From contig OY282441.1 in the NCBI GenBank assembly GCA_958296105.1, forward strand, positions 1,399,800 to 1,463,799: a DNA stretch of 64,000 bases, given 5' to 3'. The first letter of the stretch is position 1. Every line of letters starts with the position of its first letter. Both the position numbers and the translations under genes were made by a program. Shown piece by piece: positions 50,779 to 64,000 of this stretch. Under the pieces are notes generated by a model. The model did no database searches. It saw only the letters and a program-made list of their open reading frames with translations, and had not been told where the DNA came from. This stretch comes from an uncultured Dehalococcoidia bacterium (GTDB lineage Bacteria > Chloroflexota > Dehalococcoidia > Lucifugimonadales > UBA1123).

Positions 50779-53130
50779 TCACCGACTCACCGGAAACTCT
50801 GTCTCCCATATCTCGCCTTCGCCGCTGGTGTCGCTGGTGATGAACTGCCCCGTCCTGACGCTCTCGATTTCGTAGGCGGGAAGATCGACCATGGCGGCGC
50901 AGGACTCCATGCGCAAGATGATCCTGCGGTCCTCGAATTGGAAGTCGAGGTTATCGAACCCGTACTGCCTTCTGTCTTTGGGAAGGTCATCCGGGTCGGT
51001 CGGGAACACGTGCAGGAAGAAACGGGGACGGGGGCCGCTGGGGCGGACGGGTTCCGAGGCAGAGCTGACCGCCCTGAGCCGATTTCCGCCGTAGGTGTAG
51101 TACACATGCGCCCGCAGCCGATAGCCCACGTCCGCGGCGGTGGGTGTGTACACGTAAGTGGGTGTGCGGGGGCCGGGTATGTTCGCCCAGCCTTCGGCAT
51201 CGCTGCCGCGCTCCCACTGCCAGGCTTCTCGGCTGGTCATATCCGCTCTGATACGACTCTCCAAGGCGACGCCGAACGGCTCGCCCACCACTGGGGTATC
51301 GCATTCCAATAGGGCGCCTTCACCTCCATCCCGTTCCAATAGGGCGCCTTCACCTCCATCCCGCGCGTAGATCAGCGTTTTCCCGCTGAGATAGACATCG
51401 TAATCTCCGCGGAATACGCGCTCGGATTTTCCGAGCGTGTCGTCCAGCAGGAGGAACAACGGATCGACGTTTCCCCGATACAGGAAAATTTCTCGGTTTT
51501 CGGGCGTGAGCAGATCCGAGCCGTCCACTCGCAGGTTCGAGACAAGAAAGTCGTAGTCATGGATATCGCCCCGCCACATCTGGAAAGCTCGAATCACCCT
51601 TCCAGAAAGATAGTACTCCACCGCGTAATCTGCGCCGGCAAACTGAACGGCGCCTGATTGAGTCGGCGCGGAGACGAAAACGGTATCTCCCGGATGCGCT
51701 ATTTCGCGGATGCGCTCGAAGTCCGCCGTCACCGCCTCCTGAAATTCGGACGCATCCGCTCCGTGTCCAATGCGCCCCATCTGGAAGCTGGAAAGAACAA
51801 ATACCAGCATCGCGGCGGCGGAGATGCCAACGATGACGCGGTCGTCGAACTGCCTGCGGATGAGCAGCAACAGCACCGTGAACATAGCCAGCGGGACGCC
51901 AACGTAGAACACGCTCTCGAAATCGTGAAAGGCGGCAGTGGTGCGAAGCGGCAGCGCCCAGAAGAAGCCTGCCAGCGCCAGCGCCGCCAGCGGCATCGCG
52001 CGGCGGCGGACGAACAGCAGCCCGGCAAAGCACGCGCAGAGTGCAAGAGCGCCGCCAGCGACAAAAAGCGTATTGCGGGGGGCGTGCGGCAGCCGAACGT
52101 CCACAAAGCGAGTCAGCGCGTACGGAACTGACGCTCCCCATACGCGGTGAATCTGCTCTCTGAGAAAATATGGCCACGCCAGCTGATCGGCGTACTTGAT
52201 GTTGAAACCCTCGTTCTGCCCGGTTCGCTTCAACATCGACTGGAACGAAGACAGCTCGGTCAGCGGAACTCTGCCCCTCGCCGCGTTGTACTCGTTGAAG
52301 AAGTTGAAGCTCAAGACTGCCACGCCGAACATCAATGCGACCACGCCAAGAATCATGTACCGGCTGAGAAGAACCGCTGCGGCGGCGGAGCGTATTCGGG
52401 CGAGCATTTGCGGGGGTGGGGGGGAGTCAATGAGCTGCCACGCCCTGAGCAGCTCGCGCGCCAGCCCGAAGGCTATGAACGGCAGCAGAAGCGCGTAGAC
52501 GTGCCAGCCCAACAGGAGCGCGGCGCAAGCCTTTATCAGCAGCTGTCGAAATCGACCTTCCTGAACGAATACGACCATCCCATGAAAGACGACCATCACC
52601 GCGAACAGGTCTATGGTGACCTCGTTGGAGATCATGTCGCCGTAGTACAGCATGTAGTAAGACGAGAAGGAGAGGAGCGCTGCCGTCAGCGCGATCCATC
52701 TGTTGGAAGCGATTCGCGCAATCGCATGGTACGCCAGCAGCGCCGCCGCGCTGAACAGCGCCAGCATCAGAATCCGCGCGGCGAGTATCTTCGCAGACAG
52801 GTCGTCTCCGAACGGCAGAGCTGCCAGCTTGACCAGCGCGTATCCGCCGACGGGAAAGCGGTTGTACATTGCATAGGTGGGTGTGCCGTCAGGACCCGGA
52901 TGAAGACCATGGAACAGCAGGAAGTTGTGGGAAGGGGACAGGTTCTCCGCCATCGCCATGCTCTGAGAGGAGTTCCAAGAGTGATGGCTGGGACGGTAGA
53001 AGGCATCTCTATCGCCGCCGAACAGAAACAGCGTGGCGAGCGCCAGCAGGAGCAGCGCAAGCGGCAGCCTGTCGGAAGATCGGGCAATGCGCCGCCGCGC
53101 GGCGTCAAATGGCAGCTGTCTCACGTCCAA
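50779..53130 (-). CDS. Membrane glycosyltransferase-like protein with Ig-like tail, copy 1
   Basis: The 783-residue product starts at TTG 53130 (or GTG 53124, conserved in the paralogue). About ten hydrophobic segments span 20-460, the first being LPLALLLLALATLFLFGG. An early loop with HPGPDGTPTYAMYNRFPVGG and a second-helix pattern RILMLALFSAAALLAYHAIAR suit the GT39/GT83 (PMT/ArnT-like) GT-C class. Residues about 480-620 form a soluble domain. An Ig-like module (about 640-710) carries WQWERGSDAEGWANI, VYTPTAADVGYRLRA and VYYTYGGNRLRAVSSAS. It would move a lipid-linked sugar outside the membrane; this is inference. The 10 residues ERDGGEGALL are duplicated internally. Confidence 0.6.
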   Translation of the reverse strand: MDVRQLPFDAARRRIARSSDRLPLALLLLALATLFLFGGDRDAFYRPSHHSWNSSQSMAMAENLSPSHNFLLFHGLHPGPDGTPTYAMYNRFPVGGYALVKLAALPFGDDLSAKILAARILMLALFSAAALLAYHAIARIASNRWIALTAALLSFSSYYMLYYGDMISNEVTIDLFAVMVVFHGMVVFVQEGRFRQLLIKACAALLLGWHVYALLLPFIAFGLARELLRAWQLIDSPPPPQMLARIRSAAAAVLLSRYMILGVVALMFGVAVLSFNFFNEYNAARGRVPLTELSSFQSMLKRTGQNEGFNIKYADQLAWPYFLREQIHRVWGASVPYALTRFVDVRLPHAPRNTLFVAGGALALCACFAGLLFVRRRAMPLAALALAGFFWALPLRTTAAFHDFESVFYVGVPLAMFTVLLLLIRRQFDDRVIVGISAAAMLVFVLSSFQMGRIGHGADASEFQEAVTADFERIREIAHPGDTVFVSAPTQSGAVQFAGADYAVEYYLSGRVIRAFQMWRGDIHDYDFLVSNLRVDGSDLLTPENREIFLYRGNVDPLFLLLDDTLGKSERVFRGDYDVYLSGKTLIYARDGGEGALLERDGGEGALLECDTPVVGEPFGVALESRIRADMTSREAWQWERGSDAEGWANIPGPRTPTYVYTPTAADVGYRLRAHVYYTYGGNRLRAVSSASEPVRPSGPRPRFFLHVFPTDPDDLPKDRRQYGFDNLDFQFEDRRIILRMESCAAMVDLPAYEIESVRTGQFITSDTSGEGEIWETEFPVSR
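51303..51362. repeat. 30-bp tandem repeat inside copy 1
   Basis: Two adjacent 30-base units (51303-51332 and 51333-51362) differ by one base. They duplicate ten residues in the soluble domain. Copy 2 has a single unit at the same place. Confidence 0.9.
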
Positions 53131-58739: not shown

Positions 58740-58769
58740 AATATAGCAGGGGCTATTTTGGGGTGTCAA
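58740..58769 (-). promoter_or_regulatory. Strong sigma-70-like promoter for korAB
   Basis: On the complement: perfect TTGACA (58769-58764), an 18-base spacer and TATATT (58745-58740). It overlaps the stop codon of the preceding multidomain glycosyltransferase gene. The leader to the korA TTG would be about 250 bases. Confidence 0.7.
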
Positions 58770-61700
58770 TTTTGTGAAGGGCTGCACAGACGGGCGTATC
58801 GAGGTCGGGCGACGATGCGGGAGATGTTGGCGTCTCGCGCTCGCTCGTAGTCCTCTGCCCTAGTCGCGGGATCGTAGACGTAGAGAGACTCGGCGATATG
58901 GACGGGATTCGCTGCCATCTCGACGATGGGCAGCATGTATGCCCAGTCGTTCGCGTACTCGATCCACTCGCCATCCAGCTTCAGGTCATCGGCGCGTATC
59001 GCGTCGAACAGATACTTTCTGAAGGTGCGCAGATGCTGCCACACGCTGCCGCCCCGACTGCCCCTGGGGTCGAACAGGTCTGGCGGGTATCGACCCTCCT
59101 TGTCCAGCCGTGTCATAGAACCCACTGTCACATCGGCGCCCGCGTCGTACTCGCGTTCGACTCGCTCCAGCACGCGCGGCCCCGCCAGCAGGTCATCGCC
59201 GTCTAGGGTGATTATGACGCTCTGCGGGTTGTCGCAGAAATGGAATATGGCTTCCCGCATGTTCCGCATTAGCCCTTTGCGCTCGGTGTTGCGTACCAGC
59301 GTGATCCTGTCGGAGTGGGGAACGAGCAGCATCCGCGCATAGTCGCCGCAGCCGTTCGTGGATGCGTCGTCTATGACGATCGCTCCCCAGTCCGACACGG
59401 TTTGGGACAAGACCGAATCCACGCAGCGCTTCAACTGCCCCGGGTCGAGGTTGCGCGCGCATATCAGGAACAGGTACGGCTCGGAGCGCTTCGGCCCTGA
59501 CCAATCGCTCCATGTCCCTGCGAGCTCCGCCGAGTCGTTCTGGATCGCTGGCGCGAAACCCGCTTCGACGCGGTCGATCACGCCGAACAGCTCGTCGGTG
59601 TCCTTTTTCCAGTCGTTGGGAACGTGAATGAAGAACGTGCGCGGGTCTCCGCCTCGATAGGAGTGGCAGTCGCTGCCGGCGATGAACGTGTCGAACGCGC
59701 GGTGCCAGGTCGTCTGCAACGCCCCGTCTATGACCTGATTCCGGATTGGCAGAACGCTCTCCACACGGTCTTTTCTCAACATGCAGCCGCGGACTTCGAC
59801 CCTCCAGTCGCCTCCGGATCCCTCGAAGGTGTACGCGCCGCCCGATGACCCGGCGATGGATAGCGGGACGAACAACGCTTTTGGGTCGGCTTCGAACAGG
59901 TTCTGGATGTCGTGAACGTAGTCATGTTCACTATCTGCGCGACCTATCAGCAGGTCACTGTCCATCTGAAGCACGTATTCCGATTCGCACTGCTCGAATC
60001 CCCAGAGCGCAGCGAAGACGGGCTGCCCGCTCGCGGTGTGCGAAGCGGTCGCGTCGACGCCAAACCATCGCTTCAGCGCAGCCCGTATCGTCTTGGTATC
60101 CTGCGGGGCGTATATCACCCTGTCAACGACGCCGTCTTCGAGCAGCCGCTTCATGGCGTGGCGGTGCGCGACCGGATCCGCGTCCTCGTACTGGCCTGTG
60201 AAGTCGCCGACGCGCTGATCCACGACCACCACTTTCTCGGCAAAGCCGCGCGGCCCTTCCAGTTGGCTAACCTGATGTCTAACCTGCCGCTCGATGGTTC
60301 GCCACTCCATGAAGCAGGTCTTTATGAGCAGCGAGACGCCGGGAGCTTCGGACACGGGCCGCAGACGGAGAATCATGTAGTCCGAGCCCGGCCTCATGTT
60401 CAGCGTGTCGGAGCCTGGAATCTCGTCTACGCTCTCTATGCTCAGCCCCGCGCCGAGCAGGGCGCGGCGATACGCTTCCAGCGGCCTGTGCATCTCCGAC
60501 AGCCACTCTTCCGACGTGGGATCTCGTTCGGCGCAACTGAACGTAGAGTCGTAACGCGCGTCCCCGTTCGGGATGCGCTCGTGGCCTTCCGTCCGCTCGA
60601 TACGGTAGCTGAACGGGTTGCACACTGCGACGAGCGCGATTCCAGTCTCCGCCACCAGCCGCCTGATGTTCCGCAATGCTTCGTCCAGCTCCTGTCGGTG
60701 GTGGATCGCGCAGAGAACGCGGCTGCACACAACCAAATCGAAGGGGCGTTCTCTTTTCAGGAGACCGTGTATGCCGTCCGCGTCTAGGAAATCCACCTCG
60801 GTTCGTTGCGAGTCCCATGCGGCGGCGGCGGCGGGATCCGGGTCGAAACCCGTAACCCGGAAACCCTCCGACGCGAGTCGGCGCGCGAGTCGGCCTCGGC
60901 CGCAACCGTAATCCAGCACGGATTCAGCGCCCGTCTCTTTCGCCATATCCGTCAACACGCCGTCGAGCGCCTCGGACGCATTGCGCGGGTCGAGCGCGGC
61001 GAGGAAATGATCGAAGCCGCTGAGCTCGGGCAGATTATTATGGTTGGTCAGCGCGCTCCTCATCAGCTCTTTCAGATCGCTTCGGAAGTGGAATCTCCAT
61101 GCGAGGAACGCGCGGCGGCACATGTGCAGAAACTCATTGTCGCTGTACGGCATGATGTCCCTGCCGTAGTCTATGAACTTCAGCCCGCCCTGAATGACGA
61201 TGAAGTTGTCCGGGTGAACGTTCCGAGAGACGATCCCCGCCGCTCGACACTCCCGCAAGAAGGCCAGCATGTCGTCGAGGCGTCCGCCTCGATAGGGCTT
61301 CCCCTCCTCGAACGGGTACGAGATGACGAGATCGTTTCCACATCGTCTTACGTCACTGATGGCGCAGAGAGCATTATACCCATCCAGACGCCCGACGAGC
61401 GATTCGATCAAACGTCTTTGAGTGTCGCTGCCATCGAAGTCGAAGTCCAAGATGCACTTGTAGACCGATTCGCCGTCCGTGAACACGACGCCTTCCGCGC
61501 CGTGTCCGAGCGTCCTGAGACGCTCGGCTCCGAACTCGCTCTCGACCACCGCATTTGCCCGCGCAATCATCCCGATCCGGCGCTCGTCGGACGAATCTCG
61601 GTACTCCTCGACCGATTCGCCGAGCCCGGCGTAGAACGCTCTCACGTCTTTCATATTGTAGTCTTGAGCCATGCGGCGAAACTCATCGAGCGCCTCGTCC

Positions 61701-64000
61701 GTATAGCTGCGTCGCATCGTATCCGCCAGAGCGCGAAGCGTCTGAACCGCGTCCGCGCCGTTCTCGCTCGACAGCCACCATGCGCCGCCCTCGCCGGGCT
61801 GTGTGAATTTACTCATAGCGCCGAGCAGCCCGATTATTCTCAAGCAGCTGAGATCGAAGGCGTTCACGCGCTCGGTCACGTACTTCCGGAACAGCTCTTG
61901 TACGCGATCCAAGTCGCTCGATTCGAACTCCATCAGCTCCGTGCCGTAGCCCGATCCGCCCCGCTGTCTCTGTCTTCGCTGAGCCTTGTACAGCAGGATG
62001 TCGCGCAGCGCGGAATAGATCGCGTATCCGTGTACATCCTGCGCCAGTTTCCGGAGGTCGAGAGCCGCGTTCTTGACTAGGCTGCGGTCCTGCCGTATCG
62101 GAATCGGCGCGAATACGACCTTCCGCCCTCCGACGAACCGGTTGAGCAGACTCCATACCATATCGCTGCGTCGAGTATCCAAGCCGCCGATGGCGGGCGC
62201 GGCGTTCGGGAACTCACGGAGCGCCTCGGCGTCGAATATGAAAGTGTTCGGGCCGCGGTTGGCTGATGGGAGCTGGGCGAGAGACGGGTTCTGCGCGGAA
62301 GCGTGGGCGAGCGGTCGAAACACCTGAATTCCCCGCAGCATGTCAGGGGCGCGTTCGACCATCTCCGCGAACACCTGCGCCGCAGTCATGCCGTCAGCGG
62401 AGGGCTGGTACCAGAACGGCGTCTCCAGGTGAGATGCGCCCTGTATGGAGAGGTCGTAGTAGAAATCCGGGCGCGTCGCGCGAGAGAGAGCGTTCTCACG
62501 CTTCCTGTCCGGGAAGATGTCTTCGGGTTTCATGCGAGCGAGCGCTTCGAGGTTGTGGCAGAGATCGACAAGCTGCACCCTGATCGAGCTGCTGAACGGA
62601 AGCGGAGGGTCGCCGGTCACTTCGCCAATGACAACATCGGGGGAAGCTCCGTCCGCAGAGATGGACCGCAGCAGCCCAACTACGTCGGGCTGTTCACGAA
62701 CGACCGCGCCATCTTCACGGAGTACCAGACTGTCAAGTCGGCTGTCGTCGTCCAGTATCCAGACAATTCGCCTGTGGCGAACCGGTTCACTGGCGATCTG
62801 GTAAAGATAATGTTGGAGCATCGTTCGCGCCATTGCTATGGATGCTCTGTCGGGCAGTTTGCGGTATCGGGAGCCGAATTTGCCGGCTGCGAGGTCTTCC
62901 GCCTGCTTCTCGCGGCTGATGCGCGACACGATCAGCCCCCGATCCCCAGCCCGGTCTTCGACATTCGCGAGCCGATTTCCGGCGGCGTCATCCGCGCCGC
63001 CGTTTTCGAGCAGCAGCACGCTCAGGGTTACGTCGTCGCGATGGACGTAAGCGTCCGCAAGGTCGCTCAACAGACCCGCGACGATCTCGACATCAGGCGA
63101 TGTTATGACGCCGACTATCAGATCCAGCGGCTCCGAGTCGGGCGTTTCCGCATTGGCGGGCGCGTTTGCGACGTTCACGGGCTGCGTCAGAGTCGAACCC
63201 GTCCGCTCTTCCTGCGCGGGGTCATATCCGAACAGCCTACTCGCCCTGTCCATGAACCTTTGGCGCTGTTTTTCGGACATCCGAGAGCGATGCTTCCGAT
63301 AGAAGCGACGCAAGCCCTCGCGCTTGACTGCCGAACCGCGCGACGACAGCCGCTCGCGGTCCGGGTCTGCGTAATGCTCGACGAGGCACTCCGGGATCGG
63401 CGTGTAGCGTGTCTGCGCGAGGTCTGCGATTCGGATGCAAAGGTCACGGTCCGTCGTGCTTGGCATCGCTTCATCGAAGCCGCCCGCTTCCAGAAGCGTC
63501 CGCAGTCTGACGAACAGATTCGATCCCTGTATGTTCGGATTGCCGACCAAGAAATCGTCCGCGTCGAGACGGTCAGGCGCGGGCTGGAGCCTGCCGGGAT
63601 CGCCGCTGTACTCGTACCGAACGAGCCCCGCCGCGACCATATCCGCATCCGCCGCCAGCGCGGTCTCTTCACATCGTCGAAGATACGTCGGTCTCCAGGC
63701 GTCGTCATCATCGAGAACGGCGGCGAAGCAGCCCGGATTGGCGCGCTGGAGGTAGGCAAGCGCGGTGTTCCACGCGCCGGACGCGCCCGGAGTCCTGTAA
63801 TTCTCCAGATAGACGACCCGCGCGCGCTGCGCGGAGAAGTCGGCGACAACCTCCGCGTTGACGCGACGAACTCCGGCGTCGGAGTCATCGACTACGACGA
63901 GCAGATCCGGCGTCCGAGTCTGCGCCGCGACGGACGCCAGCGACCTATTGGCGAGATAACCTGGCCGGTTGCGAGTAGCCACCACCGCCGCGATCTGGAG
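58766..64000 (-). CDS. Giant multidomain protein: GT2, GT, kinase-like, methyltransferase, GT, GT2 (cut by right edge)
   Basis: At least 1744 residues; the frame is open to the right edge (the GTG at 63985 is used only for numbering). Domains: GT2 (1-240, CFAAVLDDDDAW, Asp92-95); GT-A-like (about 285-640, VWILDDDSRLDSL, Asp412-414); a helical linker; a kinase-like domain (about 820-1000) with glycine loop LGHGAEGVVF (827 on), Lys843 in YKCILDF, SRNVHPDNFIV and FIDYGRD (Asp939). A SAM methyltransferase (about 1015-1190) has VLDYGCGRGRLARRL, Asp1025. A third GT domain (about 1245-1500, VLQMDSDLLI, Asp1342) and a C-terminal GT2 domain (about 1510-1739, IITLDGDDLLAG, Asp1595) follow. There are no TM helices. 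It likely builds and modifies a surface glycan. The acceptor and sugars are unknown. Confidence 0.8.
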   Translation of the reverse strand, partial: LQIAAVVATRNRPGYLANRSLASVAAQTRTPDLLVVVDDSDAGVRRVNAEVVADFSAQRARVVYLENYRTPGASGAWNTALAYLQRANPGCFAAVLDDDDAWRPTYLRRCEETALAADADMVAAGLVRYEYSGDPGRLQPAPDRLDADDFLVGNPNIQGSNLFVRLRTLLEAGGFDEAMPSTTDRDLCIRIADLAQTRYTPIPECLVEHYADPDRERLSSRGSAVKREGLRRFYRKHRSRMSEKQRQRFMDRASRLFGYDPAQEERTGSTLTQPVNVANAPANAETPDSEPLDLIVGVITSPDVEIVAGLLSDLADAYVHRDDVTLSVLLLENGGADDAAGNRLANVEDRAGDRGLIVSRISREKQAEDLAAGKFGSRYRKLPDRASIAMARTMLQHYLYQIASEPVRHRRIVWILDDDSRLDSLVLREDGAVVREQPDVVGLLRSISADGASPDVVIGEVTGDPPLPFSSSIRVQLVDLCHNLEALARMKPEDIFPDRKRENALSRATRPDFYYDLSIQGASHLETPFWYQPSADGMTAAQVFAEMVERAPDMLRGIQVFRPLAHASAQNPSLAQLPSANRGPNTFIFDAEALREFPNAAPAIGGLDTRRSDMVWSLLNRFVGGRKVVFAPIPIRQDRSLVKNAALDLRKLAQDVHGYAIYSALRDILLYKAQRRQRQRGGSGYGTELMEFESSDLDRVQELFRKYVTERVNAFDLSCLRIIGLLGAMSKFTQPGEGGAWWLSSENGADAVQTLRALADTMRRSYTDEALDEFRRMAQDYNMKDVRAFYAGLGESVEEYRDSSDERRIGMIARANAVVESEFGAERLRTLGHGAEGVVFTDGESVYKCILDFDFDGSDTQRRLIESLVGRLDGYNALCAISDVRRCGNDLVISYPFEEGKPYRGGRLDDMLAFLRECRAAGIVSRNVHPDNFIVIQGGLKFIDYGRDIMPYSDNEFLHMCRRAFLAWRFHFRSDLKELMRSALTNHNNLPELSGFDHFLAALDPRNASEALDGVLTDMAKETGAESVLDYGCGRGRLARRLASEGFRVTGFDPDPAAAAAWDSQRTEVDFLDADGIHGLLKRERPFDLVVCSRVLCAIHHRQELDEALRNIRRLVAETGIALVAVCNPFSYRIERTEGHERIPNGDARYDSTFSCAERDPTSEEWLSEMHRPLEAYRRALLGAGLSIESVDEIPGSDTLNMRPGSDYMILRLRPVSEAPGVSLLIKTCFMEWRTIERQVRHQVSQLEGPRGFAEKVVVVDQRVGDFTGQYEDADPVAHRHAMKRLLEDGVVDRVIYAPQDTKTIRAALKRWFGVDATASHTASGQPVFAALWGFEQCESEYVLQMDSDLLIGRADSEHDYVHDIQNLFEADPKALFVPLSIAGSSGGAYTFEGSGGDWRVEVRGCMLRKDRVESVLPIRNQVIDGALQTTWHRAFDTFIAGSDCHSYRGGDPRTFFIHVPNDWKKDTDELFGVIDRVEAGFAPAIQNDSAELAGTWSDWSGPKRSEPYLFLICARNLDPGQLKRCVDSVLSQTVSDWGAIVIDDASTNGCGDYARMLLVPHSDRITLVRNTERKGLMRNMREAIFHFCDNPQSVIITLDGDDLLAGPRVLERVEREYDAGADVTVGSMTRLDKEGRYPPDLFDPRGSRGGSVWQHLRTFRKYLFDAIRADDLKLDGEWIEYANDWAYMLPIVEMAANPVHIAESLYVYDPATRAEDYERARDANISRIVARPRYARLCSPSQN

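Follow-up and report, generated by a model that had tools for sequence, protein, structure and literature searches.

A soluble multi-module glycosyltransferase chain with a mutase-like module and a probable pseudokinase in an uncultured Dehalococcoidia bacterium and in distant phyla

A 64,000-nucleotide stretch of DNA from an uncultured Dehalococcoidia bacterium (contig OY282441.1 of assembly GCA_958296105.1), referred to here as the window, was found to carry most of a gene for a single chain in which glycosyltransferase (GT) modules are joined to a mutase-like, a kinase-like, and a methyltransferase module. The architecture is real, conserved, and widespread beyond the window genome. With a probability of roughly 0.4, we read the chain as a soluble multi-module assembly enzyme of an undescribed, horizontally spread family, which may build a small methylated glycoside from nucleotide-derived and nucleoside diphosphate (NDP)-sugar precursors. 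A nucleotide-derived glycoside is proposed mainly because the chain occurs elsewhere in two types of gene cassette, whose common denominator is the pairing of the GT chain with a nucleotide N-glycosidase family. The enzyme families concerned, LOG and COG3236, split nucleotide N-glycosidic bonds.

The chain gene and its predicted modules

The gene is a single open frame on the minus strand at window positions 58766-64000, with its 5' end 85 nt past the window end. The window genome (G000) is one contig of 3.18 Mb. The encoded protein, P0001, has at most 1772 amino acids from a TTG start, and an in-frame ATG encodes residue 14; residue numbers throughout are those of P0001. Module borders were set from alignments of homologues, and the resulting features are as follows.

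58766..64000 (L003:1566-6884), minus strand: multi-module chain gene, at most 1772 amino acids, full-length homologues known
63218..64000, residues 29-289, minus strand: module A, GT2 by Pfam, profile against PDB, fold match, and conservation
61994..63136, residues 317-697, minus strand: module B, predicted GT-A fold with DDD and RRxD motifs; with H, the MtdL fold
61577..61990, residues 699-836, minus strand: module H, helical domain within the range superposed on MtdL
60980..61573, residues 838-1035, minus strand: module K, protein-kinase fold with the HRD Asp replaced by Asn955
61220..61222, minus strand: Asn955 codon, in place of the kinase catalytic Asp
60347..60976, residues 1037-1246, minus strand: module M, class I S-adenosylmethionine (SAM) methyltransferase, DxGxG intact
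59531..60343, residues 1248-1518, minus strand: module C, putative divergent GT2-type domain with a conserved DSD
58784..59488, residues 1533-1767, minus strand: module D, GT2 with a DGDD/DADD motif

The initial annotation of this DNA had described one long chain, free of membrane segments, with a GT, a GT-A-like, a kinase-like, a methyltransferase, and two further GT domains in that order. This description was borne out: the frame is intact, and no transmembrane segment was detected in the chain (best 19-residue Kyte-Doolittle mean 1.67), which is thus predicted to be a soluble multi-module protein. The annotation had also named a chimera of assembled contigs as a possible source of error and had suggested a search for proteins of the same domain order. 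An assembly chimera was ruled out, because full-length homologues with the same order were found in two independent assemblies (50% and 47% identity) and the module order recurs in about 25 genomes from many phyla. At 62%, the G+C content of the gene differs little from the 63% of the whole window, and composition therefore gave no sign of transfer.

Domain-profile and structure prediction over the full gene supported both the kinase and the methyltransferase folds. Confident AlphaFold2 models of A-B-H-K and H-K-M-C-D reached a mean predicted local distance difference test score of 88.8 and 89.7, respectively. Pfam matches in P0001 comprised GT2 at residues 31-151 and 1541-1663 and a methyltransferase at 1044-1163. 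From P0001 alone, Pfam did not recognize the segments annotated as kinase-like, as a second GT-A-like domain, and as a third GT, for which support came from family profiles and the AlphaFold2 models. Long-chain members of the family keep the acidic GT motifs, the kinase Lys, Asn, and Asp residues, and the SAM motif.

Modules A and D were assigned to GT2 from a Pfam score of 108 bits, against a cut-off of 23.3, and from their acidic motifs, which in module A are the conserved DDDD and TDRD. The closest solved structure to module A, by both profile (E 3e-14 against PDB) and fold (Z 22.6), was AvpGT, a Streptomyces GT2 that acts as a nucleoside 3'-O-glucosyltransferase (PMC11959488). However, AvpGT is a stand-alone enzyme with 22% identity to module A, and GT2 substrates cannot be read from the fold. 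For module C, a match to the Pfam GT2 model was obtained with 10 members out of 24 (best E 2e-4), which did not include the window copy; the DSD positions of the module are invariant. No solved sequence relative of this module was found, and it is predicted to be a divergent GT2-like domain, in line with the third GT of the initial annotation. Module M is a class I methyltransferase, as had been proposed (Pfam E 3.9e-15; Z 21.8 to ToxA; DxGxG motif intact).

Of the four glycosyltransferases originally counted, A, C, and D were retained, whereas module B was reassigned. Its GT-A fold was supported, and together with H it matched MtdL (Z 21.8, root-mean-square deviation 3.4, 303 of 371 residues, model 290-808), a GDP-sugar pyranose/furanose mutase from the A201A antibiotic pathway (PMC9937993). 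MtdL belongs to the NDP-sugar mutases of family GT75, as do RGP/UAM. MtdL requires its DDD motif, R159, D195, R257, D260, and the Mn-binding H287 (PMC9937993). In module B, DDD445-447 is kept in 46 of 46 members, the R638-x-x-D641 pair is spaced like R257/D260, and further invariant arginines have a spacing similar to that in MtdL, among them R502 as a candidate for the autoglycosylated R159; these equivalences were drawn by motif and spacing rather than by residue-level superposition. The likeness to MtdL thus extends to the GT-A, core, and helix domains, the DDD motif, and the R-x-x-D pair. In contrast to MtdL, module B lies within a larger chain and shares no detectable sequence similarity with that enzyme. 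The GT75 family model PF03214 gave no match in Pfam scans and none for the window's own genome in the family search, a hhalign comparison of module B with a two-sequence GT75 profile gave no signal, and MtdL was not found when the module B profile was searched against PDB sequences. By fold and motifs, module B+H may work like a GT75 mutase, and it was not filed as a member of that family.

Module K has a protein-kinase fold. A profile built from 34 members matched solved Ser/Thr kinases with a best E of 9e-7, and the residues kept include G860/G862 of the G-loop together with the invariant Lys876, Asn960 of the catalytic loop, and Asp972 at the DFG position. In one module alignment the first row was offset by about 25 residues, which left the quoted motifs unaffected. 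Kinases were not among the matches listed in the fold comparison, whose lists were taken up by other domains, and this was not counted against the kinase fold. The position of the HRD Asp is occupied by Asn955, which HMMER alignments set on the catalytic Asp of CK2 (HRDVKPHN), TTK, and CDKL5. Since an Asn stands there in 42 of 42 distinct members, from bacteria and archaea alike, module K is probably a pseudokinase. That this Asn never varies speaks for selection on ATP binding and, we infer, for a lack of ordinary phosphotransfer. The kinase-like domain of the initial annotation therefore stands as a fold, while the same replacement tells against its claim that the chain holds the same two activities as WbdD, the chain terminator of E. 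coli O9a. The corresponding residue of WbdD, D351, has been implicated in substrate and Mg binding (PMC3482155).

Architectures, distribution, and partner cassettes

The chain gene is rare and patchy. Among 98 genomes searched within the taxonomic order it was present in four, the window genome included; two of the other copies are the full-length homologues with 50% and 47% identity, and the third lacks the last two modules. A 400-genome sample of the phylum yielded only the window's own copy (E 1e-40). It was not found in genomes of the same genus (congeners). A scan of genome contigs with the module B alignment recovered 43 loci from sequenced genomes. Three viral-labelled contigs were matched as well, and a scan with module K added a fourth; the same type of scan with a single protein query gave no matches.

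Architectures were assigned with one hidden Markov model per module. The long chain, A-B-H-K-M-C-D, has 1.6-2.0 thousand amino acids and was found in Chloroflexota, Planctomycetota, Myxococcota, several Proteobacteria, archaea of the Methanobacteriota and Thermoplasmatota, Clostridia, and Bacilli. The short chain, A-x-K-B-H, has about 1120 amino acids, with K shifted ahead of B, and occurred in Psychrobacter, Vibrio, Photobacterium, and Shewanella, on a Pseudoalteromonas plasmid, and in some uncultured bacteria. An A-B form, shorter again, was present as well. On a Salinivibrio plasmid, module A forms one gene and GT-K-C-D the next. One homologue (L036:8152-11802, genome G028) ends exactly at the M-C junction, and modules C and D were not encoded nearby in any frame. 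Some chains carry extra C-terminal domains, either a histidine phosphatase or a PgaB-like polysaccharide deacetylase (L060, L066, L069, L071, L073, L079, L080, and L084).

In the module B phylogeny, the Chloroflexota formed one clade with a single archaeon as its sister, and the short form was nested within one clade (100/99). The Pseudomonadota required at least four changes on this tree.

Two types of cassette were observed around the chain. A SLOG protein of the LDcluster4 type was directly beside or fused to the long chain in 20 loci, a few of which are near-identical, and the LOG motif GGGxGTxxE is invariant among these partners. Loci with such a neighbour or fusion include L042, L065, L068, L072, L073, L074, L078-L080, and L084. 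Other members of long-chain loci resemble UDP-glucose dehydrogenases, histidine phosphatases, and PgaB-like deacetylases, and some are fused to the chain; these accessory genes and fusions fit a sugar-compound pathway. The short chain or the A-B form was accompanied by RibA-NADAR, asparagine-synthase-like (AsnB-like), and arylamine N-acetyltransferase (NAT)-like genes in 17 loci. The catalytic motifs of these partners are intact, and RibA-NADAR is split in L064.

Relatives of these partners have been described: both LOG/SLOG proteins and RibA-COG3236 (NADAR) fusions are known (PMC5312566 and references there). The cassette partners belong to these families and keep their catalytic motifs. While known RibA-COG3236 fusions sit in riboflavin operons, for example in V. 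cholerae (PMC5312566), those observed here are found with the GT chain and the AsnB-like and NAT-like genes. The short-chain form appeared as a four-gene cassette with near-identical spacing, mostly of about 7-14 kb, in Psychrobacter, Photobacterium, Vibrio, Shewanella, and on a Pseudoalteromonas plasmid (L046, L047-L052, L057, L062, L063, and L027). This unit is by itself a candidate for a cassette of biosynthesis or of defence, and its presence in cultured marine bacteria of these genera means that it can be tested.

Proposed function and alternative readings

If the chain is an assembly enzyme of the proposed kind, modules B+H would act like MtdL and turn an NDP-pyranose into an NDP-furanose, and modules A, C, and D would transfer sugars one after another, with a nucleoside or base as a possible acceptor for A. 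Module M would methylate the product. Instead of phosphorylating in the ordinary way, module K would bind ATP as a structural or regulatory pseudokinase or would carry out chemistry of a non-classical kind. The chain would work, in most other genomes, with a partner of a family that splits nucleotides into a base and ribose phosphate, namely the LOG-like SLOG protein in the long-chain cassette and RibA with NADAR in the short-chain cassette. The solo window copy would do the same job with unlinked partners or with none. No published description of the chain and no published account of the cassettes were found in the open-access literature; the chain order, the mutase-like module, and the kinase that lacks its catalytic Asp throughout are not described in the literature searched. 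The two cassettes offer a concrete starting point for finding a nucleotide-derived compound of a new kind.

Several observations weigh against this proposal. Since SLOG and NADAR domains are found in signalling and in conflict systems too, their presence is no proof of biosynthesis; the acceptors of GT2 enzymes are unreadable from the fold. For module B, no certain counterpart of the autoglycosylated GT75 Arg could be assigned, the position of the Mn-binding His is a Gln in the window protein and a His in short-form members, and the comparison with GT75, for which the profile is shallow, detected no sequence-level similarity. Additionally, neither a SLOG, a RibA-NADAR, nor any other cassette gene adjoins the window copy, and no close SLOG was found in the window genome. 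Five other Chloroflexota loci likewise have no partner genes, which makes six with the window copy.

The initial annotation had proposed an assembly and termination machine for a surface glycan, with WbdD as its model. A reading of this kind would have the GTs extend a lipid-linked surface glycan and the kinase and methyltransferase cap it with methyl phosphate. Like WbdD, the window chain is a glycan-related protein in which a kinase fold adjoins a class I methyltransferase, and some long-form relatives carry PgaB-like deacetylase pieces while some loci include a nucleotide-sugar dehydrogenase-like gene. The closest published architecture found was that of ORF6 of Klebsiella pneumoniae O7, which is a proven precedent for the same kinds of catalytic domains in one chain: it joins methyltransferase, kinase, carbohydrate-binding module (CBM), coiled coil, GT2, and GT2 in that order within an O-antigen locus (PMC11231755). 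A fused methyltransferase-kinase-GT chain as such is therefore not new. However, the kinase Asp of ORF6, D441, is essential, the D441A mutant being inactive (PMC11231755), whereas this residue is replaced throughout the present family. As judged from its published description, ORF6 further differs in its AmiN-like kinase, its coiled coil and CBM-like domain, its O-antigen locus, and the absence of any reported mutase-like module. The window chain also differs from WbdD in that its kinase precedes the methyltransferase, in its fusion to three GTs and a mutase-like module, and in lacking both a coiled-coil ruler and an ABC-exporter O-antigen context. Specifically, no extended coiled coil was seen in the AlphaFold2 models, where the helices form a bundle and are no longer than about 41 residues, and the longest stretch of the chain without Pro or Gly has 43 residues. 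Searches whose controls were positive gave no Wzt_C (PF14524) in any of four host genomes, the window genome and three related ones, and no polysaccharide locus was seen around the chain gene. Lipid- or membrane-tethered partners, which the annotation had expected, were not indicated, as the conserved partners elsewhere are soluble nucleotide enzymes. In view of these differences, a polymerase-terminator of the WbdD or ORF6 kind appears improbable.

A possible, although on balance doubtful, alternative is that the cassettes are mobile cargo of defence islands and produce a small molecule active against viruses or bacteria, or else an alarm nucleotide. It would account for the patchy spread over phyla, with four copies in 98 genomes of the order and one in the 400-genome phylum sample, for the location of L027 on a plasmid with transfer genes and of some copies in viral-labelled contigs, and for a large serine recombinase at L080 and a phage integrase at L078. 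The window copy itself follows a DrmD/BrxHI-like helicase and has a unique flanking repeat. HsdR and McrBC lie beside L062, HsdR and a PD-T4-4-like ATPase beside L064, and HsdR beside L070, but these loci, like those with mobility genes, were picked by eye and carry no count against background. Moreover, apart from generic domain hits, no PADLOC model recognized the chain or the partners specific to it, and the helicase is not a conserved neighbour, as a congener carries an unlinked homologue of it. Rather unlikely, too, is the combined picture of an undescribed, mobile class of single-chain machines for natural products, in bacteria and archaea, which open or salvage a nucleotide, make an NDP-furanose, and assemble a methylated glycosyl-nucleobase compound for use between competing microbes or against phages; an obligate HRN pseudokinase in mid-chain would be the gate that senses ATP. 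The solo copies in the SAR202 group could instead be decaying or repurposed imports without a coherent pathway, to which the six partnerless Chloroflexota loci, the loss of modules C and D from the L036 copy, and the absence of the chain from congeners would correspond. This is hardly probable, because copies from different genera, at about 50% identity, retain all catalytic motifs and the 1770-amino-acid frame and the Chloroflexota copies form one clade, which implies long-term selection.

Surroundings of the window copy

Upstream of the chain gene lie a DrmD/BrxHI-like SNF2 helicase gene and then a gene for a 398-amino-acid protein without a family match. The helicase (L003:6942-9845) had its best PADLOC hits to BrxHI and DrmD, below NCBI cut-offs, and the gene of the 398-amino-acid protein (L003:9839-11035) overlaps the helicase gene. 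Together the two genes, just right of the window, are a possible undescribed two-gene unit. A partnership of the helicase with the chain was considered and rejected, and no operon is claimed, since neither gene is linked to the chain in homologous loci. In the congener G001, the helicase homologue is unlinked and followed by an unrelated gene.

The flanks of the chain gene are marked by a direct repeat, one copy of which lies within the window.

58761..58794, no strand: copy of a 34-nt direct repeat, lying across the stop codon of the chain gene

The second copy, 94% identical, is just upstream of the gene, about 104 nt past the window end and after the helicase stop. An exact match extends over 25 nt, and only these two copies were found in the genome within three mismatches. 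Gene order departs from that of the congeners G002 and G003 at the neighbouring korA gene. The flanking repeat and the break in gene order fit, and thus suggest, an insertion, although what is left of a tandem copy would give the same picture. An empty insertion site was not found, as G002 and G003 differ from korA on and G001 has no repeat.

Further along the minus strand, window positions 50779-53130 and 53256 to about 55600 encode adjacent and very similar large multi-pass membrane proteins, in an apparent tandem duplication. A protein matching the PADLOC candidate family PDC-S11 is encoded about 30 kb from the chain gene (L004:18125-19000).

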